A stretch of 55,723 nt of DNA from an uncultured Clostridia bacterium (GTDB lineage Bacteria; Bacillota; Peptococcia; Peptococcales; Peptococcaceae): contig CALXUG010000014.1 of NCBI GenBank assembly GCA_944391625.1, positions 1-55,723 on the forward strand, given 5' to 3'. Below are positions 1,696 through 40,086 of the stretch, one piece after another. Below the pieces are notes generated by a model that saw nothing but the letters and a program-made list of their open reading frames with translations, searched no databases and was not told the origin of the DNA. How positions within the stretch are numbered: position 1 is the first letter of the stretch; each line of letters begins with the position of its first letter. Made by a program: the position numbers and the translations under genes.

Positions 1696-1836
1696 ACATA
1701 ATCAGGATGGAGTTATTTTTATATTCGTAAAAAGGATTTGTTATTTTAGCTGTCCTACATAACAGTGTTTTTACTGTTACTGTCAAGATCATTCTTAAAC
1801 ATCATGTATTTGTACTTATTTAGAGAGGTGAGTTGT

Positions 1837-9844: not shown

Positions 9845-10564
9845 TTATTTCAGCAACAGAATGAATCCGTAAATCAGCATAATGGCATACACGATATTTT
9901 TCAGCCTTTGCGGATTCATATGGTTGAGCAGTTTGTTGCCCAGGTAAATTCCCGGTGGGATGGCCAGCAGGCCGATGGCAGAATAATGAACTGCTTCCGG
10001 CGTAACCAGACCGTTTATATAACGAATGCCCAGCAAAAATACTTCCGTAACGGCAAACCACGCCTGCACGCTGGCAGTATACCGGCGCACATCATTACTG
10101 ACAGTGAGCAGATACAGCACGATTGGCGGTCCGCCAACACAAAACAGGCTCTCCAGTGTGCCGCTTAATGCGCCGGCGATAAACCCGTTGCGTTTTGTGG
10201 GCTGCATTTTGATTTTCTTTTGAAAAAAGATAAAATACAAGCTGAGTAAGATGAGAACAAGCCCTAAAATCTTTTTGATAAAACCGTCATCTACTGCGTT
10301 AAGCAGTTTGACAGCAAAAAAACTGGCGATAAAGTAACTGACAAAGGTTGGAACAATCCATTTCCAGACGATATCATGCCGCATACGAATGGCGTTGATT
10401 GCGGTAAAGGCCAGAGTCAATACGGTAACGCAAACAGTGGCGCAAGAATAGCTGGGCATCAGCAATGGAAACACCATAATTGTAATAATACCAAATCCAA
10501 AACTGGTGGAGGTATGGATGGCTGTTGCAATAAAAGTGACCAACAACAGAATGGCAATGGACAT
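9845..10564 (-). CDS. TauE/SafE-family membrane transporter
   Basis: Members of this family are eight-helix permeases linked to export of sulfite, sulfoacetate or other organic anions. This protein has 239 aa and several hydrophobic helices. It shows the family pattern of two repeats, with TSTSFGFGIITIMVFP in the first and SGTLESLFCVGGPPIVLYL in the second. The ATG at 10564 is chosen because AAGGAG lies 10 nt upstream; a longer frame to 10645 has no ribosome site. It is divergent from the LysR gene at 10759, which probably regulates it. The substrate is unknown. Confidence 0.85.
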   Translation of the reverse strand: MSIAILLLVTFIATAIHTSTSFGFGIITIMVFPLLMPSYSCATVCVTVLTLAFTAINAIRMRHDIVWKWIVPTFVSYFIASFFAVKLLNAVDDGFIKKILGLVLILLSLYFIFFQKKIKMQPTKRNGFIAGALSGTLESLFCVGGPPIVLYLLTVSNDVRRYTASVQAWFAVTEVFLLGIRYINGLVTPEAVHYSAIGLLAIPPGIYLGNKLLNHMNPQRLKNIVYAIMLIYGFILLLK

Positions 10565-10758
10565 ATTGACAAGACTCCTTTTGTGAAAAATATTATTAAC
10601 AGGGATACCCTTGTATCTAAAGGTTTTAAATGATATACTAAACACACTATATAAAATCTGTGAAATAGAAACTGCTGATATTCCGCGATTCTTTTGATGA
10701 AAACCGTGGGACGGGCATAAACAGATAACGCAGTTTGCAGCAAAGGAGGCACATAGAA

Positions 10759-11661
10759 ATGCGTATTGATCAGCTGGCAGCTTTGGTAGAAGTAGCCAAA
10801 TCTGGCTCCATCAATTCTGCTTCAAAAAAATTACATGTTACGCAGCAAAGTTTAAATAAGTCATTAAAAAGTCTGGAAAATGAAATGAATTGTCATTTGC
10901 TGGACCGCACCAAAAAAGGAATTCGTCTCACTGCTGATGGTGGAAAGGTGCTTAGCGCAGCGCAGGACATTATCAGCCGCTTAAATAAATTGGAACGGGA
11001 ATTAAATCTGACCAAAAATGCGGATACGTCTTTACATGGCAATCTCAATGTAAATTTGTCGCCGATGTTGAATATTTCTGTGCTTCCTGTAGCGTTTAAG
11101 GATTTTATATCTCATTATCCGGAAGTAAATTTATTTACTGCCGAGCGATACCGAGATCAGATTTTAGAGCGATGCTTAACCCATCAGGAATTGGGCTTAT
11201 TGTGTGTATCACCGCTGATTACAGAATTTTTTGAACAGATTCCTGAGGATATTGAATTAATCTTGTTAAAACAATATCCTATTTATGTTGCCGTATCAGC
11301 AGGGCATCCATTGGCAGACCACAAATCGCTTTCGGTCAGCACAGTGGCGCACTATCCAATCGTAGTATATGAAATAGGCGGCACCGGCGGTGTGCATGCG
11401 TTTCAGAAGATGGGGCACACAAAGGTGGCGCTGTCTACCAACAATTATAAGCTGTGTGAAGAAATTCTGCGTAATGATACAGCCATTATGTATAGTTTTC
11501 CGCCTTATCTGGAACGAAATGTATTTCCTAATTTGGTGCATATTCCAATTAAAGATAAGCAGGCTACATTTACAATCTATGCGGCAATTAATAAAAAAAT
11601 AGATAAAGCGCAACTGGGTTTGGCCCGTGCTTTTATCCATGTATTCAGTGAATATCTGTAA
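10759..11661 (+). CDS. LysR-type transcriptional regulator
   Basis: This 300-aa protein has an N-terminal winged helix-turn-helix (MRIDQLAALVEVAKSGSINS, then VTQQSLNKSLKSLE) and a C-terminal periplasmic-binding-protein-like effector domain from about residue 90. The ATG at 10759 is preceded by AAAGGAGG. It is divergent from the TauE/SafE transporter with about 190 bp between the start codons. By the usual LysR arrangement it would control that gene. The BMC operon begins 650 bp downstream, after a terminator, so a role there is possible but not indicated. Confidence 0.92.
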   Translation: MRIDQLAALVEVAKSGSINSASKKLHVTQQSLNKSLKSLENEMNCHLLDRTKKGIRLTADGGKVLSAAQDIISRLNKLERELNLTKNADTSLHGNLNVNLSPMLNISVLPVAFKDFISHYPEVNLFTAERYRDQILERCLTHQELGLLCVSPLITEFFEQIPEDIELILLKQYPIYVAVSAGHPLADHKSLSVSTVAHYPIVVYEIGGTGGVHAFQKMGHTKVALSTNNYKLCEEILRNDTAIMYSFPPYLERNVFPNLVHIPIKDKQATFTIYAAINKKIDKAQLGLARAFIHVFSEYL

Positions 11662-12155: not shown

Positions 12156-12314
12156 TTTGATTATGTGATTGCCCAATTTTATCTGGTAAAATAGAAAAGA
12201 GACTGCAAAAAAGTATGATAAGCAGATTGACTGCTGCAATTTTTTATGTTTGAAAATATATGCCAGGCAGAATCAGTCATAATCTGTAATTTTTAAATTG
12301 TGGGTGAGTTCATG

Positions 12315-12662
12315 ATGATGGAAAACAAACAGCGTATTATTCAAGAATTTGTGCCTGGTAAACAGGTAACATTAGCGCATATTATTCCCAGTCCGGTTCC
12401 GTCTTTGTATATGAAGTTAGGTTTAATAGATGCGGAAGGCGCCATTGGTATTTTTACAATTACGCCCAACGAAGCTGCGATGATAGCTGCTGATGTAGCG
12501 GCTAAGGCTGCCGATATCGAGCTGGGTCTGGTGGACCGGTTTAACGGCAGTTTGGTAATTACCGGAGATGTAGCTGCAGTGGAAGCGGCTATGTCTGAAG
12601 TTATGCATGTACTTTGTGAGCAGATGGGTTTTACTGCTGCAGCTGATTTTACCAGAAGCTGA
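12315..12662 (+). CDS. eutS: EutS/PduU-type circularly permuted BMC-H shell protein
   Basis: This hexameric shell protein has the permuted BMC fold of EutS and PduU. The start RIIQEFVPGKQVTLAHI is the family signature, whose N-terminal strand forms the beta-barrel over the pore. It continues with GAIGIFTITPNEAAMIAADVAAKAADIELG and ends in a short helix. At about 115 aa it has family length. Three ATG codons (12312, 12315, 12318) follow GGTGAG; spacing favours 12315. It is the first gene of the operon, as in many eut operons, with eutP 10 nt downstream. Confidence 0.93.
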   Translation: MMENKQRIIQEFVPGKQVTLAHIIPSPVPSLYMKLGLIDAEGAIGIFTITPNEAAMIAADVAAKAADIELGLVDRFNGSLVITGDVAAVEAAMSEVMHVLCEQMGFTAAADFTRS

Positions 12663-12672
12663 GGTAGTGCTG

Positions 12673-13158
12673 ATGGCGAAAGAAGAAAAAGAGCAGGTTG
12701 GCCCAAAACGGGTAATTTTAATTGGTGGTTCTTCTTCCGGAAAAACCACATTATGCCAGTATATTGTTCAGGAAGATTTGCATTATCATAAAACGCAAAC
12801 AGTACAGATCGTGAATAAAAATTTGATTGATACGCCGGGCGAATATCTGGAATCTGATAATCTTCGCGGTGCATTGACAGTCACCGCTGCTGATGCAGAT
12901 GTGATTGTTCTGGTGCAGGATGCTACAGAGAACGGCACCATGTTTTGGCCGGCATATTCTACGATGTTTGCCAAACCGGCTGTCGGTGTGGTGACAAAAA
13001 GCGATATTGCAACAGAAAAGCAGATTGAGATTGCGAAAAAATATTTAACAATGGCTGGGGCAAGACAATTATTTGTTACCAGCAGTATAGCGGGAACAGG
13101 CTTTGAAGATTTTTTAGAATATTTAGAATATCCCAAAAGAACAGAACAGGCAGAATAA
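12673..13158 (+). CDS. eutP: EutP/PduV-like small P-loop NTPase
   Basis: EutP/PduV proteins are Ras-like P-loop proteins of microcompartments. Salmonella EutP has been reported to have acetate kinase activity, and PduV has been linked to BMC positioning. The 161-aa protein has P-loop GGSSSGKT near residue 20, switch-like IDTPGEYLE, and VTKSD in place of NKxD. The ATG at 12673 is chosen because GAGG lies 8 nt upstream and an earlier in-frame ATG (12607) would overlap eutS by 56 nt. No separate acyl kinase gene is in the operon, so EutP could supply that step; this is inference. Confidence 0.88.
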   Translation: MAKEEKEQVGPKRVILIGGSSSGKTTLCQYIVQEDLHYHKTQTVQIVNKNLIDTPGEYLESDNLRGALTVTAADADVIVLVQDATENGTMFWPAYSTMFAKPAVGVVTKSDIATEKQIEIAKKYLTMAGARQLFVTSSIAGTGFEDFLEYLEYPKRTEQAE

Positions 13159-13253
13159 GAGCAGTATTTAAAATGTGTGTTAAGTAAACAATTTTTGATA
13201 TAAAACTTAACGGCAATGCGGCAATGATTCTGTCTGTTTGCTGCAAAGCGATT

Positions 13254-13320
13254 TGTCCACTCTCACGCTATTTAATAATCTATAGAAATATCTGATTGTT
13301 AAACAGCATGAGGGTGGACA
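13254..13320 (+). promoter_or_regulatory. Long stem-loop between eutP and the next BMC gene
   Basis: TGTCCACTCTCACGCT (13254-13269) pairs with AGCATGAGGGTGGACA (13305-13320) over 16 positions with one wobble and one mismatch, closing a 35-nt A/T-rich loop. A second GGACAT/ATGTCC inverted pair lies just before the next ribosome site (about 13385-13418). The 275-bp gap may hold an internal regulatory or processing point. Confidence 0.5.
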
Positions 13321-13433
13321 TAAAATGAATATGGGCATGTGGGAGGTGGTAACCAGATAAAGAACGGATTATGTGGTGGAATTGGACATGATTATCCTTG
13401 ATTTATACTCAAAATGTCCGATGGAGGTGACAT

Positions 13434-14021
13434 ATGAAAGCGTTAGGTTTAATTGAACTCTTAGGATATGTTCCTGCAGTAGTGGCGTTGGATACCGCAT
13501 TAAAAACAGCTGAAGTATCATTCCAACAAATCAGTAAAATTGACAAGGGAATTATTTCCTTGACGGTAACTGGTGACGTTTCTGCGGTACAGGCTGCTAT
13601 GGATGCAGCTGCAGCAGCGGCAGAACAGGTTGGACAGGTTCTTTATGTACATGTCATTCCTCGTCCCCATGATGAAGTGGATGAAATGCTGAACCCGCCT
13701 CCGGCTGCCCCGCAGGCTCCGCAGCCGCCTTCTGCTTCAGATGATTCCGGCGATGAACCGGATCCTGAAACAGCGGCAGAATTGCCGCAGGCAGAGACTG
13801 CGCAGGAAGTATCTGCAGAGGAATCGGCAGAATTAACTGCTGATTTGAAAGCGCAGATGGAAAATCTTACTCTGGAAGTATTGGAAGAGATGACAGTGAA
13901 AGAGCTGAGAACCGTTGCTCGGGAGCTGAACATCACAAATATGAGCCGGAAAGAAATCAGATTTGGCAAAAAAGAAGACTTGGTAGCTTCTATTTGTAAA
14001 TATTTGGAACAGGAGTGTTGA
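13434..14021 (+). CDS. BMC-H shell protein with C-terminal Rho-N/SAP-like domain
   Basis: Residues 1-86 are a BMC-H domain (MKALGLIELLGYVPAVVALD through [15 protein letters not shown]). A Pro/Ala-rich then acidic linker follows (about 90-140). The last 50 residues contain LEEMTVKELRTVARELNI and a basic turn leading to KKEDLVASICKYL, which resembles the helix-extended-helix Rho-N/SAP fold, a nucleic-acid-binding module. EutK of enterobacteria similarly joins BMC to a helix-turn-helix tail, though with a different domain. GGAGGTGA precedes the ATG. The gene ends 3 nt before the aldehyde dehydrogenase. The tail might bind RNA or DNA or organise cargo; that is inference. Confidence 0.85.
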   Translation: MKALGLIELLGYVPAVVALDTALKTAEVSFQQISKIDKGIISLTVTGDVSAVQAAMDAAAAAAEQVGQVLYVHVIPRPHDEVDEMLNPPPAAPQAPQPPSASDDSGDEPDPETAAELPQAETAQEVSAEESAELTADLKAQMENLTLEVLEEMTVKELRTVARELNITNMSRKEIRFGKKEDLVASICKYLEQEC

Positions 14022-14024
14022 TTT

Positions 14025-15569
14025 ATGCAACTTTTTGACAAAGACCTTTTGTCTGTACAGGAAGTACGTGGTTTAGTAAGTGCAGCAAAAGAAGCACAGG
14101 CAGAACTGGCAGGTAAAACGCAGGAAGAAGTAGACCGCATTGTAAAATCCATCGCTGATGCTGGTGTGCGCAATGCAGCTAGACTGGCTGTAATGGCTAA
14201 TGAAGATACCGGTTTTGGTATCGTAGCCGACAAAGTGGTAAAAAACGTATTTGGTAGCTACAATGTTTATCAGGCTATCAAAGATATGAAAACAATTGGT
14301 GTAATCGACAGAGACGCTGAAAAAGGTCTGGTTACAATTGCAGTACCTCTGGGCGTAGTTGCTGGTATCGTTCCATCTACCAACCCAACATCTACCGTTT
14401 TCTTTAAAGCGGAAATCGCTATTAAATCCGGTAATGCGATCGTATTCTCTCCACATCCATCTGCTCTGCGTTGCATCCAGGAAGCTGTAAAAGTTATCCG
14501 TCAGGCAATTGCTGAAGTTGGCGGTAACGAAAACCTGGTTTCCGTTATCAGTATTCCAACCAGACAGGCTACTGAAACATTGATGACTCACCCAGACACC
14601 GCTATGATTTTGGCTACTGGTGGTTCTGCAATGGTTCATGCTGCTTACTCTTCTGGTAACCCAGCAATCGGTGTAGGCCCTGGTAACGGCCCTGCATTTA
14701 TTGATAAGAGTGCTGATCTGGCTCTGGCTGTAAAACGTATCATGGATTCCAAAACATTCGATAATGGTACTATCTGCGCTTCTGAACAGTCTATTATTTG
14801 CGAAGAAGATTACAAACCAGCTGTACAGGCTGAAATGGAAAAACAGGGCGCTTATTTCCTGAGCGATGAAGAAAGCACAAAACTGGGCAAATTCATTCTG
14901 CGTGCAAACGGAACAATGAATCCTGCTATCGTTGGTAAGAGCGTACAGACCATTGCTGGCTTAGCTGGCCTGGAAGTTCCAGCCGGTGCTCGCGTACTGG
15001 TATGTAAAGAAGATGGTGTTGGCCGCGGTCATCCATATTCCAACGAAAAACTGGCTCCAATCCTGGGCTTCTATACTGGGAAAGACTATCAGGATGTTTG
15101 CGAAAAAGTTTGCATGATCCTGAGCTACGAAGGGAAAGGTCATACCTTCTCCATGCACACCAATAATCAGGAAATGGTTGAATACTTTGCAAAACGTGTT
15201 CCAGTTTCCCGTATCTGCGTAAATACCCCAAGTACAATGGGCGGTATCGGCGCAAGCACTGCTCTGCTGCCATCCCTGACACTGGGCTGCGGCGCAATCG
15301 GCGGTTCTGCTACATCTGAAAACGTTGGTCCAATGCAGTTATTGAACCTGCGTTATGTTGCAATGGGTATGCTGGAAATGGAAGATATTCGTGCAAGTCT
15401 GCCAGATTGCTCCAGTGGCGTATGCGTAATGAAAAATGCTGCTGATGCTCCGGCTGCTGTCGCTCCAACAATGGCTGCTCCAGCTGCAAACGCTGCAAGT
15501 ACAAATCTGAATGATAATCAGATGGATGAACTGGTTCGTAAAATTATTGAACGGTTACAGAATGCTTAA
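14025..15569 (+). CDS. eutE: CoA-acylating aldehyde dehydrogenase (EutE/PduP type) with C-terminal encapsulation helix
   Basis: This lumen enzyme oxidises an aldehyde to acyl-CoA with NAD+. The 514-aa protein has the catalytic Cys251 in NGTICASEQ, and the blocks [13 protein letters not shown] and [10 protein letters not shown] that fit CoA-dependent aldehyde dehydrogenases. After the catalytic domain there is an Ala/Pro-rich linker (about 470-493) and a terminal amphipathic helix, [18 protein letters not shown]. This is the linker-plus-helix design of a C-terminal encapsulation peptide. It starts 3 nt after the preceding shell gene. Codon bias is strong. The chain length of its substrate cannot be read from sequence. 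Confidence 0.93.
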
Positions 15570-15651
15570 TTAAAAAAGCATAATTGATTAGTTTTAAATT
15601 TTATAGATAAACATCAAAATATTGAAAAATATTTGAGGAGGAAATTTTATT

Positions 15652-15933
15652 ATGGCTACAATGCAAGCATTAGGCATGATTGAAACAAAAGGTGTAGTAG
15701 CTGCTATCGAAGCTGCTGACGCAATGGTAAAAGCTGCGAATGTTACTCTGATTGGGAAAGAACACATTGGCGCTGGTTTGGTAGATGTAATGGTACGCGG
15801 TGATGTAGGGGCTGTAAAAGCTGCTGTAGACGCCGGCGCTGCTGCTGCTGAACGTGTTGGTGAACTGGTATTTGTTCACGTAATTCCAAGACCACATGAT
15901 GAAGTAGAAGAAATTCTGCCAACTCTGGGCTAA
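15652..15933 (+). CDS. BMC-H shell protein (PduA/EutM type), copy 1
   Basis: This 93-aa protein is a canonical hexameric shell tile. It has [25 protein letters not shown], the KAANVTLIG strand and the C-terminal [12 protein letters not shown]. The pore loop reads K-E-H-I-G-A-G, with G40-A41-G42 where PduA has G-S-G. A GAGGAGG site lies upstream. It differs from the next two copies mainly around the pore (HIGAGLVD versus QVGGGLIC), so the pores may select different molecules. Confidence 0.96.
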
Positions 15934-15973
15934 TTACCCCAAATATTATCGAATATAAAAGGAGTGTATATAG

Positions 15974-16255
15974 ATGGCTACAATGCAAGCATTAGGCATG
16001 GTTGAAACAAAAGGTCTGGTACCTTCTATCGAAGCTGCAGATGCTATGGTAAAAGCTGCAAACGTAACTTTGATTGGCAAAGTACAGGTAGGCGGCGGTT
16101 TGATCTGTGTAATGGTGCGCGGTGATGTAGGAGCTGTAAAAGCATCTGTAGATGCAGGCGCAGCGGCAGCAGAACGCATTGGCGGACTGTTGGCAGTGCA
16201 TGTAATCCCAAGACCACATGAAGAAGTAGAATCCATTCTGCCTAAATTAAAATAA
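15974..16255 (+). CDS. BMC-H shell protein (PduA/EutM type), copy 2
   Basis: This 93-aa hexameric shell tile has pore loop K-V-Q-V-G-G-G (residues 36-42) and a Cys45 after it. The protein is identical to copy 3 at 16340-16621. The two genes differ at only five bases over the coding region, all synonymous. An AAAGGAG site precedes the ATG. The extra G-G-G pore may be wider or less polar than that of copy 1; this is inference. Confidence 0.96.
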
Positions 16256-16280
16256 ATCTGAATGAACAATATCGGCCTTT

Positions 16281-16306
16281 GAGCAGAATCCTAATCGGTT
16301 CTGCTC
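16281..16306 (+). promoter_or_regulatory. Perfect hairpin between duplicated shell genes
   Basis: GAGCAGAA (16281-16288) and TTCTGCTC (16299-16306) form a perfect 8-bp stem with a 10-nt loop and no T tract. It may be an mRNA-stabilising or processing structure that tunes the amounts of shell proteins. Confidence 0.5.
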
Positions 16307-16339
16307 GAAAAGTCGAAGTTTGAAGGAGTGTATAGATAG

Positions 16340-16621
16340 ATGGCTACAATGCAAGCATTAGGCATGGTTGAAACAAAAGGTCTGGTACCTTCTATTGAAG
16401 CCGCAGATGCTATGGTAAAAGCTGCAAATGTAACTTTGATTGGCAAAGTACAGGTAGGCGGCGGTTTAATCTGTGTAATGGTGCGCGGTGATGTAGGAGC
16501 TGTAAAAGCATCTGTAGATGCAGGCGCAGCGGCAGCAGAACGCATTGGCGGACTGTTGGCAGTGCATGTAATTCCAAGACCACATGAAGAAGTAGAATCC
16601 ATTCTGCCTAAATTAAAATAA
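16340..16621 (+). CDS. BMC-H shell protein (PduA/EutM type), copy 3, identical to copy 2
   Basis: This 93-aa shell tile has the same amino-acid sequence as copy 2. The ribosome site region AAGGAGTGTATAGATAG also nearly repeats that of copy 2 (AAGGAGTGTATATAG), so the duplicated unit includes the translation signal. It probably raises the dose of the main hexamer. Recent tandem duplication or gene conversion explains the near-identity. Confidence 0.96.
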
Positions 16622-16663
16622 TTGTGCAGTTTAATTTTTTAACCCAATAAGGGGGTGGAGCGT

Positions 16664-17458
16664 TTGAAGGTAATTACGGAAGCAAAGGTGAGAGCAGAAG
16701 TACCGCGCAGCGAACACCCGGAAGCTTATTATATTGAGCCGGGTTATATTCTGTCTCCCGCAGCACGTGAATATCTCATGGGACGCCAAATTAAAATTGT
16801 AAACGGACCAAAAGCCGGTCAAGAGCCTGAGCCTGAATCCGTCGTCATTGCAGCTGAGGTACCCCCTATGCCTTCTGCAAATCCTCAGTCAAAGGTTGAA
16901 AGCGCCAAATATGTGGATTATGCCACAGGTGCCTGTTATTTTGAAAAGCCAGTTCATATGACCATTTTATGCGGCAATGTGCTGGTGCCGAAAGATCATC
17001 CGCAGATTGCATTCCGGGGTAAACTGGAAAGTCTGCAGGCACAGATTATTTTAAGTCAGGCAATGATCGCAGGCCATAACGGAAACCAGAAACTGATAGA
17101 TGATTTAAACGATATTTTGATTCATTTACGGAACATATTGCGAAAACATATTCTGACAGAACCTTTGGAGCCGGTTAAAATGCTGGGCTTAACCGCCAGT
17201 GAACTGCGGGAACGGGCCAAAAATCCAATGCAATACTTTAATGTAGAGCAGGTTGGAATACCGGATTATACCAGAGGATTGGAATATGCGCAGCTGAATC
17301 AGCTGTATACACAGACGCGGGAAGCAGAAGTGGCAGCGGTAGCAGCATTCCGTGAAGGAAATCGTTATACCAGAAATGACATCCTGGAAACATTGAATGA
17401 TATGTCCAGTGCTTTTCGGGTAATGATGTTTATGCATTTGGCAGGTGAATATAAATGA
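16664..17458 (+). CDS. eutT: EutT-like cobalamin adenosyltransferase
   Basis: EutT makes adenosylcobalamin from ATP and reduced cobalamin. The 264-aa protein follows the E. coli EutT layout as I recall it: ILSPAAREYLMGRQIKI near the N-terminus, FRGKLESLQAQIILSQ in the middle, then EPLEPVKMLGLTASELRERA and REAEVAAVAAFR. The metal motif of classical EutT (H-x11-C-C-x2-C) is absent; only one Cys lies in that region. This would fit the class that needs no metal. The start is TTG at 16664, preceded by AAGGGGGTGG; GTG at 16655 would lie inside that site. It overlaps pduL by 4 nt. No B12-dependent enzyme is encoded in the window. Confidence 0.8.
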   Translation: MKVITEAKVRAEVPRSEHPEAYYIEPGYILSPAAREYLMGRQIKIVNGPKAGQEPEPESVVIAAEVPPMPSANPQSKVESAKYVDYATGACYFEKPVHMTILCGNVLVPKDHPQIAFRGKLESLQAQIILSQAMIAGHNGNQKLIDDLNDILIHLRNILRKHILTEPLEPVKMLGLTASELRERAKNPMQYFNVEQVGIPDYTRGLEYAQLNQLYTQTREAEVAAVAAFREGNRYTRNDILETLNDMSSAFRVMMFMHLAGEYK

Positions 17459-18081
17459 GCGAAGCAAGCATGATTGATCAGGTAGTCAATGCTGTTGTTG
17501 ATACAATTTCCAAAGAATATGTACAGGTTGAAGTTTCCGCGCGTCATGTGCATTTGAGTCAGGCAGACCTGGAAAAGTTATTTGGACCTGGCGCAACACT
17601 GACTCCAAAACGTGAACTGTCTCAGCCTGGTCAGTTCCTGTCTGAACAGCGTGTTACTCTGGTAGGACCAAAAGGCAGAAAAGAAAACGTTTCTGTTTTG
17701 GGACCTGTTCGGAAAGCGACACAGGTAGAATTGTCCAACAGCGATGCCAGAGGATTAGGGGTAAAAGCTCCTTTGCGGGAGTCCGGCGATGTTGCTGGAT
17801 CCGGAGCAATCACTCTGGAAGGGCCAAAAGGCAGTGTAGAAATTCCAGAAGGCGTTATTGTGGCCCATTGCCATATTCATATGACCACTGCGGATGCCCG
17901 CAGAATGGGTCTGTCCGATAACCAGCATGTCAGCGTGGAAATCGGCGGAGAACGTCCTGTTGTGTTTAAAGATGTAATTGTCCGTGTCAGCGATAAATTC
18001 CGTTGCCGGATGCACATTGATACAGATGAAGGGAATGCAACCAGTTTAGGAAAACTGACCTTGGGCAGAATTATAAAATAA
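17455..18081 (+). CDS. pduL: Phosphate propanoyltransferase (PduL)
   Basis: PduL converts acyl-CoA to acyl-phosphate in the lumen and recycles CoA for the aldehyde dehydrogenase. The 208-aa protein shows two PduL half-domains. Zinc-site histidines are visible: SARHVHLS (H31, H33), AHCHIHMT (H138, H140, H142) and RMHIDTDEGNA (H187). Residues 1-20 form an amphipathic helix before the core and could be an encapsulation peptide, as in enterobacterial PduL. ATGA overlap with eutT indicates translational coupling. Confidence 0.95.
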   Translation: MSEASMIDQVVNAVVDTISKEYVQVEVSARHVHLSQADLEKLFGPGATLTPKRELSQPGQFLSEQRVTLVGPKGRKENVSVLGPVRKATQVELSNSDARGLGVKAPLRESGDVAGSGAITLEGPKGSVEIPEGVIVAHCHIHMTTADARRMGLSDNQHVSVEIGGERPVVFKDVIVRVSDKFRCRMHIDTDEGNATSLGKLTLGRIIK

Positions 18082-18121
18082 AGTAGTTGAAATAAAGCTG
18101 TCAGCGAAGGAGTTTTCAAAA

Positions 18122-18955
18122 ATGATGGATTTACAGCGAGTAAATGCATACATGGAACGGGTAGCGCAGTCAGAAAAGAAGACATTCCAGCCGGTAAGCG
18201 ACAAGCTGAAAGTGGGATTGGACCTGGGAACTGCCTATATCGTTCTGGTTGTACTTGATGAAGAAGATAATCCTGTTGCCTGTGAAAAGCAGGCAGCCAG
18301 TGTATTAAAAGACGGTGTCGTAGTTGATTATGTGGGTGCGCTGCAAATTGTGCGGGAGCTGAAAGAAAAGTTGGAAAAGCGTCTTGGTACAGAGCTGCAA
18401 TATTGTGCCATCGCCATGCCGGCCGGAACAGAGGACAGCATAAAAACCCATCAATATATTGCTGAAGGCGCAGGATTGGAAGTCACCAATGTTTTGGATG
18501 AACCATCGGCAGCCAATGCCATTTATCAGATTGACGACGGTGTTGTTGTTGATATCGGCGGCGGAACCACAGGATTGGCGATTCTGAAAAACGGGGTTGT
18601 GGCCCAAATTGAAGATGAACCAACAGGCGGTACCCATCTTTCTCTGGTACTTGCAGGAAACTATCGAATCTCTTTCGATGAAGCAGAGAAAATCAAACAG
18701 GATTATAAACGGCACAAGGAAATTTTTCCAATTGTCAAACCTGTAATTGAAAAAATGGCTACGATTGTCAAACGGTATGTCAATAAAGATGAGGTAGATA
18801 CTTTGTATCTTTGTGGAGGTACTTGTTGTTTGACCGGAATCGAAACCATTTTTGAAAAGGAAACGGGCATTCATACTGTGAAGCCGGAAAATCCTTTCCT
18901 GGTGACGCCAGCCGGTATTGCTATGAATTGCAAACTGGATGGAACAGTTGTATAG
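18122..18955 (+). CDS. eutJ: EutJ-like Hsp70/actin-fold protein
   Basis: EutJ proteins have an actin/Hsp70-type ATPase fold and are suspected chaperones or reactivases of microcompartment enzymes. The 277-aa protein has phosphate-1 loop GLDLGTAYIVLVVLDEE (about 31-47), phosphate-2 loop VVDIGGGTTGLAI and adenosine motif LYLCGGTCCLTGI. It is half the length of DnaK because it lacks the peptide-binding domain. The N-terminal 25 residues are a helical extension. ATG codons at 18122 and 18125 follow AAGGAG. In eut systems EutJ is usually near EutBC, absent here. Confidence 0.9.
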   Translation: MMDLQRVNAYMERVAQSEKKTFQPVSDKLKVGLDLGTAYIVLVVLDEEDNPVACEKQAASVLKDGVVVDYVGALQIVRELKEKLEKRLGTELQYCAIAMPAGTEDSIKTHQYIAEGAGLEVTNVLDEPSAANAIYQIDDGVVVDIGGGTTGLAILKNGVVAQIEDEPTGGTHLSLVLAGNYRISFDEAEKIKQDYKRHKEIFPIVKPVIEKMATIVKRYVNKDEVDTLYLCGGTCCLTGIETIFEKETGIHTVKPENPFLVTPAGIAMNCKLDGTVV

Positions 18956-18971
18956 AGAAAGAAGGGATACC

Positions 18972-19730
18972 TTGGACTTCGATGCGATGGTAGAAGAACT
19001 TGCAAATCGTGTGATTGCTGCAATGGCAGAAATTGAAGCGGAGCAGAAGCCGGCAGAGGCTTGCAGTACAACAGGTTTTTGCTATGCAGATACCCCTGAG
19101 TCAAAGAAGCCGATTTTAATTGGGCTGACACAGGACAGTGCTTTGCCTCCCTGCCGCTTTACTCTGTTGGAAAGTGCCAGAGTAAAAGAAAAATACCGCA
19201 TTCAATGTGCGCAGAAATGTGACTATGATGTGGATATTGCCAGTTGCGAAGCCGTGGTGCTCCATGATTTGACCAATGAATCGCTGGCTAAAATCGCTAG
19301 TGGTATTTGTGATACAGCATACACAAAACTGGTATCACAGGCGCTTTTACTGGGCAAAACAGTTTATTTGCTGCAAGATCAGATTGAATTATATAATTAC
19401 AGACAGACTGCTGCGAAGGTATATTACAAAATGTTCCGCGAGAAATTGGGACTGTTGGAGCAGTCTGGATTGATTATTTGCTGTCCGGATAAAATAGAAG
19501 ACATTCTTGTAAACGGTCAGCCCACAGAAGCAACTTGTCCTGCAAGTGAAGTAAAAAAGACGGCTGTAGAAAAAACTGTTACACTGGAAAAACATTTAAT
19601 CAGTGAACGGGATGTAGTTACAGCCTGTCAGTCTGGTGCAAACCGGATTGTCGTTGGTGCGAGGGCGATTGTAACTGATTTGGCCAAAGAATATGCGCAG
19701 AACCATGATGTAGCATTGGTTCGGGAATAA
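18972..19730 (+). CDS. BMC-associated protein of the ethanolamine-utilization hypothetical family
   Basis: I do not recognise an enzymatic function. The roughly 252-aa protein resembles a family found beside PduL and EutN in clostridial eut and related BMC operons. It has an N-terminal helix (DFDAMVEELANRVIAAMAEIE), a central region with a flavoprotein-like alternation (PILIGLTQDS, ASCEAVVLHDL), and a C-terminal module ERDVVTACQSGANRIVVGA with TDLAKEYAQNH, also seen in EutQ/PduM-type proteins. The TTG at 18972 is chosen because GAAGGG lies 5 nt upstream and it begins at the BMC-type helix. An ATG at 18939 inside eutJ is possible. Confidence 0.6.
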   Translation: MDFDAMVEELANRVIAAMAEIEAEQKPAEACSTTGFCYADTPESKKPILIGLTQDSALPPCRFTLLESARVKEKYRIQCAQKCDYDVDIASCEAVVLHDLTNESLAKIASGICDTAYTKLVSQALLLGKTVYLLQDQIELYNYRQTAAKVYYKMFREKLGLLEQSGLIICCPDKIEDILVNGQPTEATCPASEVKKTAVEKTVTLEKHLISERDVVTACQSGANRIVVGARAIVTDLAKEYAQNHDVALVRE

Positions 19731-19755
19731 TTGCGTAATAAGAGGAGGAATTTCA

Positions 19756-20040
19756 GTGCAAATCGCCAAAGTAATCGGCAATATCTGGGCGACCAGAAAA
19801 GAATCCACCCTTACTGGAATGAAGCTGCTGATTGTGCAGCCAATCAATATTCTGGATAATGATACACCCTGCAGTGTACCCATTGTGGCTGCAGATATGA
19901 TCGGAGCCGGAATGGGTGAAACCGTTATCATTGTTACCGGCAGCACGGCTCGTGTGGCCACCGGTTCTGCAGAGGCATCGGTAGATGCAACTGTAGTAGG
20001 GATTGTAGATGATAAAGAACTTGATTCCAGTTTGGTTTAA
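19756..20040 (+). CDS. eutN: BMC-P pentameric vertex protein (EutN/CcmL family)
   Basis: This protein forms pentamers that cap the vertices of the polyhedral shell. The 94-aa sequence starts QIAKVIGNIWATRKESTLTG and contains AADMIGAGMGETVIIVTGSTAR and the C-terminal DATVVGIVDD, all typical of EutN/CcmL. The start is GTG with AGAGGAGG 8 nt upstream. It is the only BMC-P gene in the operon. Confidence 0.96.
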   Translation: MQIAKVIGNIWATRKESTLTGMKLLIVQPINILDNDTPCSVPIVAADMIGAGMGETVIIVTGSTARVATGSAEASVDATVVGIVDDKELDSSLV

Positions 20041-20089
20041 TTGTTAAGAAAGTTCCATAGATTTTCTTTAGAAAAGTGTGGTGTAGACC

Positions 20090-21436
20090 TTGAGTTTTAT
20101 TGATACAGTAAAAGATGCAGGTATCGTAGGGGCCGGTGGTGCCGGATTCCCCACACATGTAAAGCTGAATGCAAAAGCAGAATACTTTATTGTCAATGCA
20201 GCAGAATGTGAACCATTGATCGAAACAGATAAATATCTGTGCCGTACCTTTGCTGATCAGATCGTAGAAGCAGTTATGGCTACTGCGGCCCATATCGGCG
20301 CAAGCCGTAAAGTGATTGCGCTCAAAGGCAAATACAAAGAAGAAATCGCTTCTTTGCAGGCTGCTATTGACCGTGCCGGTTCTGATATCGAGATATTCCA
20401 GATGCCAACCTTCTATCCGGCTGGTGATGAACAGACTATGGTACAGATGGTTACTGGCAGAAGTGTCCCGGAACGCGGTCTTCCATTAGATGTCGGCGCT
20501 GTTGTAGACAATGTTGGTACTATGCTGAATTTGTATGAAGCATTGCATGGTGCGCCTGTTACAGAAAAATATTTGTCTGTAGTTGGTGAAGTAAAAGAAC
20601 CAATTATGCTGAAAGTGCCAATTGGTACTCCAGTAACAGAATGTATTGCCGCTGCACAGCCAACCATCAGTGATTACAGAATCATTTTGGGCGGTCCAAT
20701 GATGGGTAAAATCCCAGCTGACGCGCAGGCTATTGCAGATGCAGTTGTTACCAAAACAACCGGTAACATTATTGTATTGCCAAAAGATCACTATCTGTTC
20801 CAGCGTGCAGAACTGCCGCTGGCAGCTATCAAACGTCAGGCGCGCGCTGCTTGTATCCAATGTAAGATGTGTACAGATTTGTGTCCTCGTTATATGATTG
20901 GACATCAGATTCGTCCTAACATGGTAATGCGCAATATCTGGCGGGAAGATCAGATTACAGATGATGAAGAATATTTAGCAACCTTTGGCGAAGCTATGAA
21001 CTGCTGTGACTGTGGCGTATGCGAAATGTTCGCCTGCCCAATGGGATTATCCCCACGTAAAGTAAATAGCTATGTAAAAGGCCAGTTGCGCGAAAAAGGC
21101 ATCAAAGTTCCACGTAATATGGAACCTGTTGCTCGTGAAGGCATTGACAACCGTCGTATTCCAACCCACCGACTGATTGCCCGTCTGGATTTGGCAGAAT
21201 TTGATGGTTTGCATGCCCATGAATGCTTTGAATTGAAACCGGAAACCGTATATGTACCATTCCGCCAGCATATCGGTAAGCCTGCTGTTCCTGCTAAGGC
21301 AGCCGGTGATCGTGTTGTAAAAGGCGAAGTGTTAGCTGCTGCGGCAGAAGGATTATCTGCCAATATTCACGCCAGCATGAATGGTATCATTGTTGCTATT
21401 GATGAAAACGGCGCTCGTATTAGAAAGGAGGTATAA
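20090..21436 (+). CDS. pduS: PduS-like flavin/iron-sulfur oxidoreductase
   Basis: PduS is an RnfC-related flavoprotein that reduces cobalamin in B12-dependent microcompartments, and it may carry electrons across the shell. The 448-aa protein starts with VVGAGGAGFP-like IVGAGGAGFPTHVKL (FMN/NADH region). It has two 4Fe-4S motifs, CIQCKMCTDLCP near residue 255 and CCDCGVCEMFACP near 305. An N-terminal-like biotinyl-lipoyl fold closes the protein. The start is TTG at 20090, fixed by homology to the family start; the ribosome site is weak. It is followed by the PduT-like shell protein, its usual partner. Confidence 0.93.
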   Translation: MSFIDTVKDAGIVGAGGAGFPTHVKLNAKAEYFIVNAAECEPLIETDKYLCRTFADQIVEAVMATAAHIGASRKVIALKGKYKEEIASLQAAIDRAGSDIEIFQMPTFYPAGDEQTMVQMVTGRSVPERGLPLDVGAVVDNVGTMLNLYEALHGAPVTEKYLSVVGEVKEPIMLKVPIGTPVTECIAAAQPTISDYRIILGGPMMGKIPADAQAIADAVVTKTTGNIIVLPKDHYLFQRAELPLAAIKRQARAACIQCKMCTDLCPRYMIGHQIRPNMVMRNIWREDQITDDEEYLATFGEAMNCCDCGVCEMFACPMGLSPRKVNSYVKGQLREKGIKVPRNMEPVAREGIDNRRIPTHRLIARLDLAEFDGLHAHECFELKPETVYVPFRQHIGKPAVPAKAAGDRVVKGEVLAAAAEGLSANIHASMNGIIVAIDENGARIRKEV

Positions 21437-21440
21437 TGCT

Positions 21441-21980
21441 ATGGGAAATGCATTAGGCATGATTGAATTGTCCAGTATTGCCCGGGGCATCGAAACCTGC
21501 GATTATATGGTGAAAGCAGCCCAGGTAGATCTGGTACGTGCTTCTACTGTTTGTCCAGGTAAATACATCATCATTATCGGTGGTGATACTGCTGATGTAA
21601 GAGCCTCCATGACAGAAGGATCTAAAATTGGGGGGCCGTATGTAGTTGATACATTGCTCATTCCTAATATTAATGAACAGGTGATTCCAGCCATCTCTAT
21701 GACCAATCAGGTAACAGACAGAGATGCCATCGGAATCCTGGAATTCTACTCTATCGCATCTGCAATCACAGCTGCCGATGTGGCTGCGAAAGCTGCCGAT
21801 GTTACTTTAATCGAAGTAAGAATTGGCTATGCTATTGGTGGAAAAGGCTTTGTTACTTTGACTGGTGATGTAGGCGCAGTTCGCGCTGCTGTCTCTGCAG
21901 CCAAAGAAAATGCTGAATTGCTGGTAAACACAAGTATTATCCCAAGACCGGCAAATCAGTTGTTTGACGCATTATTATAA
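21441..21980 (+). CDS. pduT: BMC-T trimeric shell protein with Fe-S pore (PduT type)
   Basis: This 179-aa protein has two fused BMC domains (1-88 and 95-179), forming pseudohexameric trimers. The first domain has VRASTVCPGKYII, placing Cys38 where PduT binds a 4Fe-4S cluster at the three-fold pore. With PduS encoded next to it, an electron path from lumen to cytosol is plausible. The ATG at 21441 follows AAAGGAGGT; the longer frame starting at 21381 lies inside pduS and is rejected. It is the only BMC-T gene; no EutL or PduB homologue is present. Confidence 0.95.
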   Translation: MGNALGMIELSSIARGIETCDYMVKAAQVDLVRASTVCPGKYIIIIGGDTADVRASMTEGSKIGGPYVVDTLLIPNINEQVIPAISMTNQVTDRDAIGILEFYSIASAITAADVAAKAADVTLIEVRIGYAIGGKGFVTLTGDVGAVRAAVSAAKENAELLVNTSIIPRPANQLFDALL

Positions 21981-22040
21981 TCCAGTAAGAGATAATTCAA
22001 ATAAGATATTGTAAAAATCTTGTTTAAGGAGAGAGATAGA

Positions 22041-22997
22041 ATGGATTTATTGAAACTTCAGGAAGAGCTGAGAGAAAAAGCTCTGCAGAGATCTAGAGAA
22101 GAAAAAGCTGCCAATAAAGCAAAAGCACCAGCTGCTGGTCCATTAAAAGGTCCTATTATTGACTTCCGGTATCGTCCAAATACCAAAAGTATCATTGGCG
22201 GTATTGCTGAAAGCCCAATTTTCCGTGCTGGTCTGATTGCCAATGGTGTAGATATTGATGAATTCTACAGCAGAGCAAGAACCATGCCGGAAATTATTGC
22301 AGACCTGAAAGAACACAATGTAATTAAAGCTGTTATCGTTGGTCGTGACGCGGAAACAACCTATGGCTACAAACCAAACAACCCAGAAATCAGACAGTTC
22401 GTTCAGGCTTGTCCTGAAATTTTCCTGGGCTACTATGGTGTAGACCCTCACAAAGGCATGCAGGCAATCCGTGATCTGGATGCAGCTGTAAAAAGTGGTG
22501 ATTTCCACGGCGCTGCTATGGACCCAATGTATGCACAGCTGAAAACCAGCGATGCAAAAATGTATCCAGTTTATGCAAAATGCTGCGAACTGAACATTCC
22601 TATCGTTATCACTGCTGGTCCAGCTCGTTATACAGCAAATACCGTTATGGATTACACCCATCCAAGTGAAATCGATATCGTAGCAAAAGACTTCCCAGAT
22701 CTGAAAATCATCGTAAGCCATGGTGCATGGCCATTCGTTGATGAAATGATCGGCGTGACCTTCCGGAACAGAAACGTATTCCTGGAAGTATCCGAATATG
22801 AAGAATATCCAGGTGCAAGCGACTTCCTGGATGCTGCAAAAACTATCCTGAAAGATCAGTTCTTGTTTGCCAGCGCTTGCCCATTCGTACCATATTTGGA
22901 AGCAGCAGAAAAATACACAACCTATGGTTTTGATGATGAAATCATGGAAAAAGTTATGTGGAAAAATGCTGCAAGAGTATTGGGTATGGATGTATAA
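22041..22997 (+). CDS. Amidohydrolase-2-type TIM-barrel enzyme with putative N-terminal encapsulation peptide
   Basis: This is the last gene of the BMC operon and the only candidate signature enzyme in it. The catalytic part (about 37-318) resembles amidohydrolase family 2 (ACMSD/lactonase/decarboxylase group). Residues 1-22 form a charged amphipathic helix followed by an Ala/Lys/Pro linker to residue 38, the usual layout of an encapsulation peptide. Canonical metal ligands look substituted: HxH is R43-x-R45, the strand-5 His position is T191, and the strand-8 Asp is A279; only H227 (SHGAW) remains. It may be metal-free or use another chemistry. The ATG at 22041 follows AAGGAGAG. Reaction unknown. 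Codon bias is strong. Confidence 0.8.
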   Translation: MDLLKLQEELREKALQRSREEKAANKAKAPAAGPLKGPIIDFRYRPNTKSIIGGIAESPIFRAGLIANGVDIDEFYSRARTMPEIIADLKEHNVIKAVIVGRDAETTYGYKPNNPEIRQFVQACPEIFLGYYGVDPHKGMQAIRDLDAAVKSGDFHGAAMDPMYAQLKTSDAKMYPVYAKCCELNIPIVITAGPARYTANTVMDYTHPSEIDIVAKDFPDLKIIVSHGAWPFVDEMIGVTFRNRNVFLEVSEYEEYPGASDFLDAAKTILKDQFLFASACPFVPYLEAAEKYTTYGFDDEIMEKVMWKNAARVLGMDV

Positions 22998-32329: not shown

Positions 32330-34384
32330 ATGACTTTACAGAGAAAAGCATTAGCAGACAAAATTATGATTCTGGGCGTTGACGGTATGGACCCAAGCCT
32401 GACTAAAAAATTCCTGGCCGAAGGTATCATGCCAAACGTACAGAAATACATCGAAAAAGGTTCCACAAGAGAAGACCTGATTATGCAGGGGGCGCACCCA
32501 ACCATTACCCCGCCAATGTGGACATCTATGGCCACCGGTACTTGCCCGGGTACTCACGGTATCACCTGCTTCTGGAACCAGGATCATTCTTCCCTGGACA
32601 CCATGGTATATGCATTAGATTCCCGTAAATGCAAATCCGAACCACTGTGGAACGCATTTGCCGAAGCCGGCAAAAAAACATTGGTATGGCACTGGCCAGG
32701 TTCCAGCTGGCCTCCAACCAGCGATAACGCAAACCTGCACGTAGTAGATGGCATCTCTCCATCCGGCGTAGGTATGGGTAACGCTGTAGGTGACTGGGAA
32801 AAATTAATTGTTGCCGATACCAAATTTGAAGGTGTTGTAGTAAAACCAAGAATTCAGGTTAACAACGGCGCAGGCTGCATCATTACCGACTTGCCGGATG
32901 AAGCACCGGAAGCAAATGCTGTAGGTACTGCTGTAGTAGCAGAACTGGATGAAAAAGGTGAAAAGAAAGTAACCAACATTGAACTGAGCGAAGCAGACGG
33001 TGAACTGGGCTTAGATAACTGCCCAATCGACATCGTTAACTCCGAAATTAAAGAACCAACAGGTTGGGCTGCAACTCTTCCAGAAGGCGCAAGAGAATTT
33101 ATTGCAGTTTATGCCGAAGGCTTAGTAAGACGTCCTTGCCTGGTTCTGAAAAATGAAGCTGGCAAATATGACCGCATTGCTATTTACAAAAACAAAAAAG
33201 AAGCAGAACCAATGCTTACACTGGTTGCCGGTGAAAAAATGGTTACTTGGGTAGAAGAAATGCCATATAAAGACACCAAAGCTCAGTGTTCTCGTAACGT
33301 AAAACTGTTAGATATGAACGAAGACGGTACTCATCTGCGTTTCTGGATTGGTAACTGTGTAAATATTGAAAATGATAATCTGTGGCATCCAACTTCTCTG
33401 CATGATGCAGTAATCGAAAATGTTGGTCCTCAGACTCCGACCGCATTATATGGTGCATTTGACCCAGTTCTGGCAAAAAAATTACAGGTTGAATCTTGGG
33501 ATAGATACTGTGAATGGCAGAGCAATGTACTGCACTATTGCGCACAGGAAGAAGGCTTTGAAGTAATTTACAGTCACATTCACAACGTAGACGCTATGGG
33601 CCATAAATTCTGGCACTATGCCAAACCGGAAGAAAACACACCGGAAGCAATCGAAAGAGCAGAAGCATATCAGAATATCATTCGTGACGTATATCGTCAG
33701 ACTGACGACTATCTGGGCAGCTTCCTGCACTTCCTGGATGAAGGCTGGACTATCTTGATCATGAGTGACCATGGTTTAAATGTCATGGAAGATCCACATC
33801 CACCACTGATTGGCGACGCATTCGGCTGTAATGTGCGTGTGCTGGAAGAACTGGGCTTTACCGCTTTAAAACATGATGAAAACGGCAATGCTCTGAAAGA
33901 AATCGACTGGGAAAACACCAAAGCGGTTGCTACCCGCGGCGGCCACATCTGGATTAACCTGAAAGGCAGAGACACCAACGGCGCAGTAGAACCGGAAGAT
34001 AAATATGCTGTAGAAGAAGAAATCATCACAGCACTGTACAAATACGAACACAAAGGAAAACGTGTTATCGAACTGGCTCTGCGCAACAAAGATGCTAAAG
34101 TATTGGGTATGTATGGCCCTGAATGCGGCGATATTATCTACTTCCTGGCAGAAGGGTTCAACCGTATTCATGGTGATTCCTTAACCACCATGGAAGGGTT
34201 CTGGGATTCTTCCGTATCCCCAATCCTGATTATGGCAGGGAAAGGCGTCAAAGAAAACTACAAAACAGACCGTATCATGCATCAGTTAGACTTTGCTCCA
34301 ACAGTAGCTGTACTGGGCGGCGTGCGTATGCCTCGTGACTGCGAAGGCGCGCCAATCTATCAGGTACTGACCGAAGAATTTTAA
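32330..34384 (+). CDS. Alkaline-phosphatase-superfamily hydrolase 1 (type I phosphodiesterase-like)
   Basis: This 684-aa protein has the metal-dependent hydrolase fold shared by nucleotide pyrophosphatases and phosphodiesterases. Visible landmarks: ILGVDGMDPSL (metal Asp18), PTITPPMWTSMATGT with Thr60 as likely nucleophile, IYSHIHNVDAMGHKFWH and IMSDHGL (metal Asp/His sites), and TRGGHIWINLKGRD. A segment of about 230 residues inserted in the middle is unusual. No signal peptide is seen, so it is cytoplasmic and distinct from secreted phosphatases. Strong codon bias suggests abundance. The paralogue at 35545 shares both ends closely. The substrate (phosphodiester, phosphate or sulfate ester) is unknown. 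Confidence 0.85.
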   Translation: MTLQRKALADKIMILGVDGMDPSLTKKFLAEGIMPNVQKYIEKGSTREDLIMQGAHPTITPPMWTSMATGTCPGTHGITCFWNQDHSSLDTMVYALDSRKCKSEPLWNAFAEAGKKTLVWHWPGSSWPPTSDNANLHVVDGISPSGVGMGNAVGDWEKLIVADTKFEGVVVKPRIQVNNGAGCIITDLPDEAPEANAVGTAVVAELDEKGEKKVTNIELSEADGELGLDNCPIDIVNSEIKEPTGWAATLPEGAREFIAVYAEGLVRRPCLVLKNEAGKYDRIAIYKNKKEAEPMLTLVAGEKMVTWVEEMPYKDTKAQCSRNVKLLDMNEDGTHLRFWIGNCVNIENDNLWHPTSLHDAVIENVGPQTPTALYGAFDPVLAKKLQVESWDRYCEWQSNVLHYCAQEEGFEVIYSHIHNVDAMGHKFWHYAKPEENTPEAIERAEAYQNIIRDVYRQTDDYLGSFLHFLDEGWTILIMSDHGLNVMEDPHPPLIGDAFGCNVRVLEELGFTALKHDENGNALKEIDWENTKAVATRGGHIWINLKGRDTNGAVEPEDKYAVEEEIITALYKYEHKGKRVIELALRNKDAKVLGMYGPECGDIIYFLAEGFNRIHGDSLTTMEGFWDSSVSPILIMAGKGVKENYKTDRIMHQLDFAPTVAVLGGVRMPRDCEGAPIYQVLTEEF

Positions 34385-38328: not shown

Positions 38329-38499
38329 AAGATTAGATAATGGAACAGAGAGATTGTATCGAATCGTTTTTTACATCTTGCCGGCCGGCGAAACAGATGT
38401 GCAAATAATAAATAACAAAATTGTATGACAGAATGATGTGAATTTATTTCACAATTTTATTCAAACAAGAACTATTTCATTATGAAGGGAGTTATTTTT

Positions 38500-39978: not shown

Positions 39979-40007
39979 TGAGAGAAGATAGTCAAAATAT
40001 TGTAACA

Positions 40008-40036
40008 AAAAGGGCATTGTGTGCGGATGCCCTTTT
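40008..40036 (+). terminator. Terminator between the two DASS genes
   Basis: AAAAGGGCAT (40008-40017) pairs perfectly with ATGCCCTTTT (40027-40036). Confidence 0.75.
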
Positions 40037-40086
40037 ACATAGTAATATATATAATCATTAAAAGGTATAGGAGAGAAAAGAAAGCA

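Follow-up and report, generated by a model that had tools for sequence, protein, structure and literature searches.

The isethionate sulfo-lyase IslA, a glycyl radical enzyme (GRE), releases an aldehyde together with sulfite (PMC6453916), and the roles of its active-site residues and the corresponding mutants have been described (PMC8473560). In Bilophila wadsworthia, IslAB belongs to a bacterial microcompartment (BMC) cluster; the last entry of its published Table 1 is a gene of 'predicted amidohydrolase function' beside PduS, with no role assigned (PMC8667426). In Desulfitobacterium hafniense, the genes of IslA/IseG and of a TRAP transporter (DctP plus a fused DctQM) stand together, and just upstream lie BMC genes, among them that of acetaldehyde dehydrogenase (PMC9888536); the main text of that paper names no amidohydrolase.

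Here, we analysed 55,723 nucleotides (referred to as the window) from an uncultured Clostridia bacterium of the Peptococcaceae, whose near relatives come from the guts of dairy cattle, goat and water buffalo. The forward-strand open reading frame at 22041-22997 encodes a protein of 318 amino acids with an amidohydrolase fold and stands at the end of a BMC operon. A ribosome-binding site, AAGGAG, lies nine bases 5' of the ATG (22026-22031).

The BMC operon and its neighbourhood

The genes preceding the amidohydrolase-like gene (12300-21980) are all on the forward strand. They begin with an EutS-type shell protein (12300-12662), an EutP/PduV-type GTPase (12607-13158), a BMC-H shell protein with a Rho_N-like C-terminal domain (13434-14021) and an acylating acetaldehyde dehydrogenase with a C-terminal targeting-type helix (14025-15569; TIGR02518, 690.7 bits vs 620.1). 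Three BMC-H shell proteins follow (15652-15933, 15974-16255 and 16340-16621). The last two are identical in sequence, as from a recent duplication, and three BMC-H genes are likewise found at this place in another member of the genus (L003). Next come an EutT-like adenosyltransferase (16655-17458), the phosphotransacylase PduL (17455-18081) and an EutJ-like actin-fold protein (18122-18955), which we named by BMC gene order and fold, the Pfam matches being to PilM/MreB/FtsA/HSP70. A TIGR02536-like ethanolamine-utilisation protein (18939-19730; 79.7 bits, below the cut-off), an EutN/CcmL-type pentamer (19756-20040), a PduS-like RnfC-family protein (20090-21436) and a PduT-like tandem BMC shell protein (21381-21980) complete the series.

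With its acylating aldehyde dehydrogenase, phosphotransacylase (PTAC), PduS, PduT and shell genes, the operon has the gene set of an isethionate-type BMC. IslA itself is absent from the BMC locus and from the window in this genus and is encoded elsewhere in the genome, so that its delivery to this shell is presumed. EutB was not detected in the window genome, with a positive E. coli control, and an ethanolamine lyase is therefore unlikely to be the signature enzyme. The search for diol dehydratase with PF02286 was silent in the window genome and in all controls alike. An EutT-like adenosyltransferase is present despite no EutB being detected, and the Bilophila IslAB cluster poses the same puzzle. 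The window genome also has a separate BMC locus with a choline lyase, CutC (L072, 10126-14856).

The BMC operon is preceded by a LysR regulator (10735-11661, forward strand), which shares 43% identity with the LysR proteins encoded next to IslA in sister genera, and divergent from it lies the gene of a TauE/SafE sulfite-exporter family protein (9845-10645, reverse strand). Further upstream, on the forward strand, the window encodes a TRAP solute-binding protein (544-1599) and a fused TRAP DctQM (1765-3720), with identities of 43-46% and 54-56%, respectively, to their counterparts in the IslA operons of sister genera.

An arginine cluster in place of the metal site

In the amidohydrolase superfamily, an HxH motif, a histidine on strand 5 and an aspartate on strand 8 serve as metal ligands. 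The window protein scores 92.3 bits with Pfam PF04909 (Amidohydro_2; cut-off 26.4), and its alignment with related proteins, 43 sequences in all, shows that this canonical set is missing. R43-x-R45 (22167-22175) occupies the HxH column, T191 (22611-22613) replaces the strand-5 histidine and A279 (22875-22877) the strand-8 aspartate, and the strand-6 histidine H227 (22719-22721) is invariant. All of these residues had been called in the same way by a first-pass annotation of the window. The residue next to A279, C280, is a conserved histidine in the rest of the IslA-linked clade described below. The AlphaFold2 model (pLDDT 93.1) consists of a helix (residues 3-28) and a TIM barrel, with R43, R45, T191, H227 and A279 each directly after barrel strands. 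Together with the alignment, it bears out the previously noted layout of an N-terminal helix (residues 1-22; 22041-22106), a variable Ala/Lys/Pro linker (residues 23-37; 22107-22151) and a barrel.

The R-x-R motif characterises a large subfamily whose members mostly occur outside BMCs and which includes the solved structure 3irs and dozens of paralogues. Its members have a third arginine in common, R102 in the window protein (22344-22346), which is present in 40/43 RxR members and in 0/6 HxH members, and all 43 RxR members keep H227. With R43, R45, R102 and H227 the window protein has the complete 3irs-like pattern. By the alignment, the subfamily has exchanged the metal site for an arginine cluster at the same mouth.

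The first-pass annotation had taken the lost ligands as a novelty of microcompartments. This is refuted, since RxR is widespread in non-BMC members and in 3irs: the loss predates the BMC association and did not arise in a BMC. The BMC operon and the missing ligands would also fit an amidohydrolase that gave up its metal and took on a new task within this very microcompartment, but in view of the older origin of the loss we regard this as very unlikely. A BMC-specific reaction of the window protein is possible.

The Peptococcaceae have dozens of RxR paralogues without a terminal extension, often beside DASS transporters. One 3-Mb genome (G001) has 21 matches to the window protein, and those inspected are RxR paralogues, which amounts to a large expansion. 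In the window, two similar type I phosphodiesterase/AlkP-fold genes are followed by two DASS transporters (32330-34384, 35545-37596 and 38482-41529), and an RxR paralogue on contig C12 (L044) has the same pairing of AlkP-fold and DASS genes next to it. No relative of the window protein was found in the viral contigs searched.

Compared with orthologues, the barrel has dN/dS values of 0.02-0.06, helix 1-22 about 0.11 and the linker 0.4-0.6. The barrel is under purifying selection with strong constraint, the helix is constrained and the linker is loose.

Co-occurrence with IslA

Outside the genus, the nearest relatives share 56-57% identity with the window protein; they are not BMC-linked and are encoded directly after a GRE and its activase in TRAP-transporter operons. 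The GRE of these sister-genus operons belongs with IslA, scoring about 1200 bits with PDB 7kq3 and 5ymr vs 505 for choline lyase. When 398 genomes of the phylum were searched with a profile, six further genomes from four families gave scores near 390 bits, and all six proteins are encoded in IslA clusters. Together with the window protein, the IslA-linked clade has 14 members (support 100/99).

Among the matches, NCBIfam offered no model of its own for IslA; these GREs are covered by NF048011, which is named 3-sulfopropanediol dehydratase. Hence, we distinguished IslA from HpsG by active-site residues and defined an IslA-type GRE by Q193, W374 and F682, the last being isoleucine in HpsG. The linked GREs keep the IslA residues R189, Q193, W374, C468, E470, R678, V680, F682 and G805. 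In the reverse search of the 398 genomes, eight had an IslA-type GRE, and all eight are among the nine that carry a window-type protein (hypergeometric p about 6e-16, phylogeny ignored). The homologue lies inside the IslA cluster in 7/8 IslA genomes, the window genome being the exception. In the ninth carrier, G001, the operon that contains the homologue encodes a variant GRE (N193, V682). The protein is absent from one genome whose GRE is a Q682 variant.

In the window genome, the IslA-like GRE is encoded on another contig (G000:C33) and is 65.7% identical to the sister-genus enzyme. The enzyme of the window genus keeps R189, Q193, W374, C468, E470, R678, F682 and G805, and the only difference seen is N192 for I192. 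Of the five genomes of the genus with a BMC copy of the protein, four also have this enzyme; the fifth, G005 (82% complete), gave no IslA match. The window genome also encodes dsrA (549.5 bits vs 392.85).

Taken together, the protein is very probably an accessory of isethionate (C2-sulfonate) respiration, that is of the IslA system. This link was missing from the first-pass reading, although the clade follows IslA and RxR relatives stand beside other desulfonating enzymes (see below). The loss of the canonical ligands might alternatively mark a decaying pseudoenzyme without function; given the constraint on the barrel and the retention of the protein with IslA in nine genomes of five families (the ninth with the variant GRE of G001), this is hardly conceivable.

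Several other GRE loci were observed. Three more GREs of the window genome (L082, 7798-10311 and 16437-18944; L084, 9770-12283) are related to IslA and have N193, F374 and I/V682. Judging by their residues and the nearby TauE-like and DASS genes, they probably act on other sulfonates or organic acids. At L040 (1894-8291), an IslA-related GRE (N193, V682) shares its operon with an Fe-alcohol dehydrogenase, an amidohydrolase homologue and a beta-hydroxyacid dehydrogenase, and this operon likely serves a different sulfonate. In three IslA clusters, a gene for a small protein is next after the IslA activase (L117, 17775-18116; L118, 17080-17430; L119, 10768-11115), and the L119 protein has a weak DsrE/DsrF-family match.

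RxR relatives beside other desulfonating enzymes

On annotated plasmids, RxR relatives occur in several sulfonate contexts. An Aliarcobacter plasmid has one within the ssu operon, and on Methylocystis and Azospirillum plasmids they lie beside ssuD, sfnG and msuE. In Methylobacterium nodulans (L154), the neighbour is a Rieske oxygenase with CXH-X26-CXXH, the hallmark of MsmA (PMC4433239); NCBIfam gave it no name, and it was identified by the 26-residue spacer. The accession of this plasmid occurs in a published MsmA/MsmE sequence set. On two Methylobacterium plasmids (L145, L147), the RxR relative is found beside SorA (696 and 676 bits vs 600) and sulfite or sulfate exporters; these loci have the sulfite dehydrogenase and exporters and no desulfonating oxygenase. 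At L145, which is from M. nodulans, the homologue is of the 3irs type and lies between succinate-dehydrogenase/fumarase-like genes and the SorA/TauE genes, a context that suggests a pathway for a sulfonated dicarboxylate.

Overall, sulfonate or sulfite genes were near 6/10 RxR plasmid lineages vs 0/10 non-RxR loci (one-sided p 0.005), with contexts classified by eye after the sulfonate idea had formed and with five of the six sulfur-linked lineages forming one clade, so that they are not fully independent. The sixth, the M. nodulans SorA/TauE locus, groups with 3irs. The TTT-linked loci L143 and L150 are not RxR and were set aside. The RxR loci L137, L138, L142 and L146, as well as the DASS-adjacent paralogues of the Peptococcaceae, have no sulfur neighbours, and the subfamily may therefore act on other anions.

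Terminal extensions and encapsulation

The BMC-locus homologues of two other genera (L114, L115 and L116) carry C-terminal MEKMIIESVIKELSKRGVIG-type ends like BMC targeting peptides, and the aldehyde dehydrogenase of the window operon ends in a comparable sequence. In the window genus, the N-terminal helix is found instead of a C-terminal peptide, and it is restricted to BMC-linked members of this genus. Close relatives without shell genes nearby have neither an N- nor a C-terminal extension. Counted by lineage, an extension is present in 3/3 BMC lineages vs 0/5 others (one-sided p 0.018).

The first-pass annotation had described the N-terminus as an amphipathic helix in the layout of a BMC-targeting peptide. 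The helix is predicted, with an amphipathicity no higher than in shuffled sequences: 0.64 of shuffles of the same residues reach its hydrophobic moment. Support for the layout is therefore comparative, namely the BMC operon and the restriction of the extension to BMC-linked homologues, and among close homologues outside BMC loci our search found none with this extension. Considering this distribution, the window protein is probably an encapsulated cargo of an isethionate-type BMC, which would handle the acetaldehyde.

The extension raises another explanation, in which the protein is a non-catalytic adaptor or scaffold that binds IslA and, by means of its own extension, brings it into the shell. 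IslA lacks an obvious targeting peptide: the IslA-type GREs examined, including those of BMC loci, do not differ from each other by any extra N- or C-terminal segment, and in those BMC loci it is the co-encoded RxR protein that bears the targeting-type extension. However, the protein is conserved beside IslA in operons without BMC genes, the residues of its active-site mouth are conserved, and relatives adjoin SsuD and MsmA, enzymes that do without a shell. We consider a pure adaptor role unlikely.

Proposed function

The flavin monooxygenase SsuD releases an aldehyde together with sulfite. The same pair of products is formed by IslA (PMC6453916) and by methanesulfonate monooxygenase, whose MsmA is a Rieske oxygenase (PMC4433239); the three enzymes are unrelated and their products alike. 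Carbonyl-bisulfite adducts are stable, the Kd being about 2e-4 M with formaldehyde and less than 1e-5 M with glycolaldehyde (PMC6459274). The shared release of aldehyde and sulfite, the stability of the adducts and the conserved arginines and histidine led us to propose an adduct lyase.

We suggest that aldehyde and bisulfite would combine to an alpha-hydroxysulfonate, acetaldehyde giving 1-hydroxyethanesulfonate. R43, R45 and R102 would hold the sulfonate and stabilise the leaving sulfite, and H227 would act as the base that takes the proton of the alpha-hydroxyl, driving sulfite out. Such a reaction would need no metal; the freed aldehyde would pass to the dehydrogenase and the freed sulfite to Dsr. 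That the window protein is a metal-free alpha-hydroxysulfonate (carbonyl-bisulfite adduct) lyase is a tentative proposal, to which we give somewhat less than an even chance. Spontaneous dissociation of the adduct at neutral pH may be fast enough to need no enzyme. More tentatively still, the RxR subfamily as a whole might consist of metal-free adduct lyases serving the IslA, SsuD, methanesulfonate monooxygenase and SorA systems, packaged in isethionate BMCs to undo an adduct that would sequester both products in the lumen. A literature search for a hydroxymethanesulfonate lyase found none, and to our knowledge no dedicated alpha-hydroxysulfonate lyase is known.

Two further roles have to be weighed against adduct cleavage. 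The protein might act on the aldehyde alone, for example by a retro-aldol or condensation reaction, with sulfite being incidental. The BMC operon does include an acylating aldehyde dehydrogenase, and IslA, SsuD and MsmA all release aldehydes (PMC6453916; PMC4433239); however, L147 and L145 combine a sulfite dehydrogenase with exporters and have no desulfonating oxygenase, and the conserved arginines speak for an anionic group. An action on the aldehyde alone is thus quite unlikely. Similarly, a hydrolase or lyase acting upstream, which would free isethionate or another sulfonate from an ester or amide conjugate before IslA, would agree with the amidohydrolase fold, the operon position with a transporter and the gut-type niche of the organism. 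Such a step is improbable, since the metal ligands that catalyse hydrolysis are gone, the presumed placement inside the BMC suits an aldehyde step rather than uptake, and this type of protein is shared by sulfonate pathways as different as those of SsuD and MsmA.

The fold, the BMC type and IslA were already known, and we found no published description of the partnership or of the proposed chemistry. Our data shift the reading from new BMC chemistry to a conserved, presumably metal-free partner of sulfonate desulfonation, which is packaged when the pathway is packaged. If adduct cleavage is the true function, a role would be given to a widespread uncharacterised family with a solved structure (3irs), and the exchange of metal ligands for arginines would be explained. 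An overlooked partner would be added to the pathway from isethionate to H2S of gut and other anaerobes. It also raises a question that we did not find addressed in the literature, namely how a stable adduct is handled when aldehyde and sulfite are released together in a closed compartment.

Comparison with known systems

ACMSD, LigJ, 2,6-dihydroxybenzoate decarboxylase and other PF04909 enzymes share the fold (Z about 20-23), the catalytic mouth and the strand-6 histidine with the window protein, whereas their canonical HxH, strand-5 His and strand-8 Asp are replaced by RxR, Thr and Ala. Bilophila also has amidohydrolases in the form of metallo-bile-salt hydrolases, but these are secreted and metal-dependent (PMC13081902) and do not correspond to the window protein.

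The best solved relative is 3irs/3k4w, BB4693 of Bordetella bronchiseptica (phmmer E 7e-31, Foldseek rank 1), which superimposes with a VIA Z of 30.4 over 267 residues at 28% identity. It has the same pattern of R-x-R, R102 and H227 and an alanine at the strand-8 Asp position, and differs in having no N-terminal extension. In the tree, 3irs groups with the M. nodulans protein beside SorA/TauE, outside the IslA clade. Our literature search found no paper on BB4693.

Among the described BMC systems, the plan of D. hafniense with IslA, TRAP and BMC genes is shared by L115, which contains the homologue. At L115 the extension is C-terminal and IslA lies in the cluster, whereas in the window genus the extension is N-terminal and IslA is encoded elsewhere. 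The B. wadsworthia gene HMPREF0179_00649 has the same place as the window gene, beside PduS and together with acylating aldehyde dehydrogenase, PTAC, EutT-like and PduT-like genes (PMC8667426), a likeness of gene position and annotation. IslAB lies within the BMC cluster in Bilophila, whereas in the window genus the sulfo-lyase gene and its presumed shell are found at separate places in the genome.
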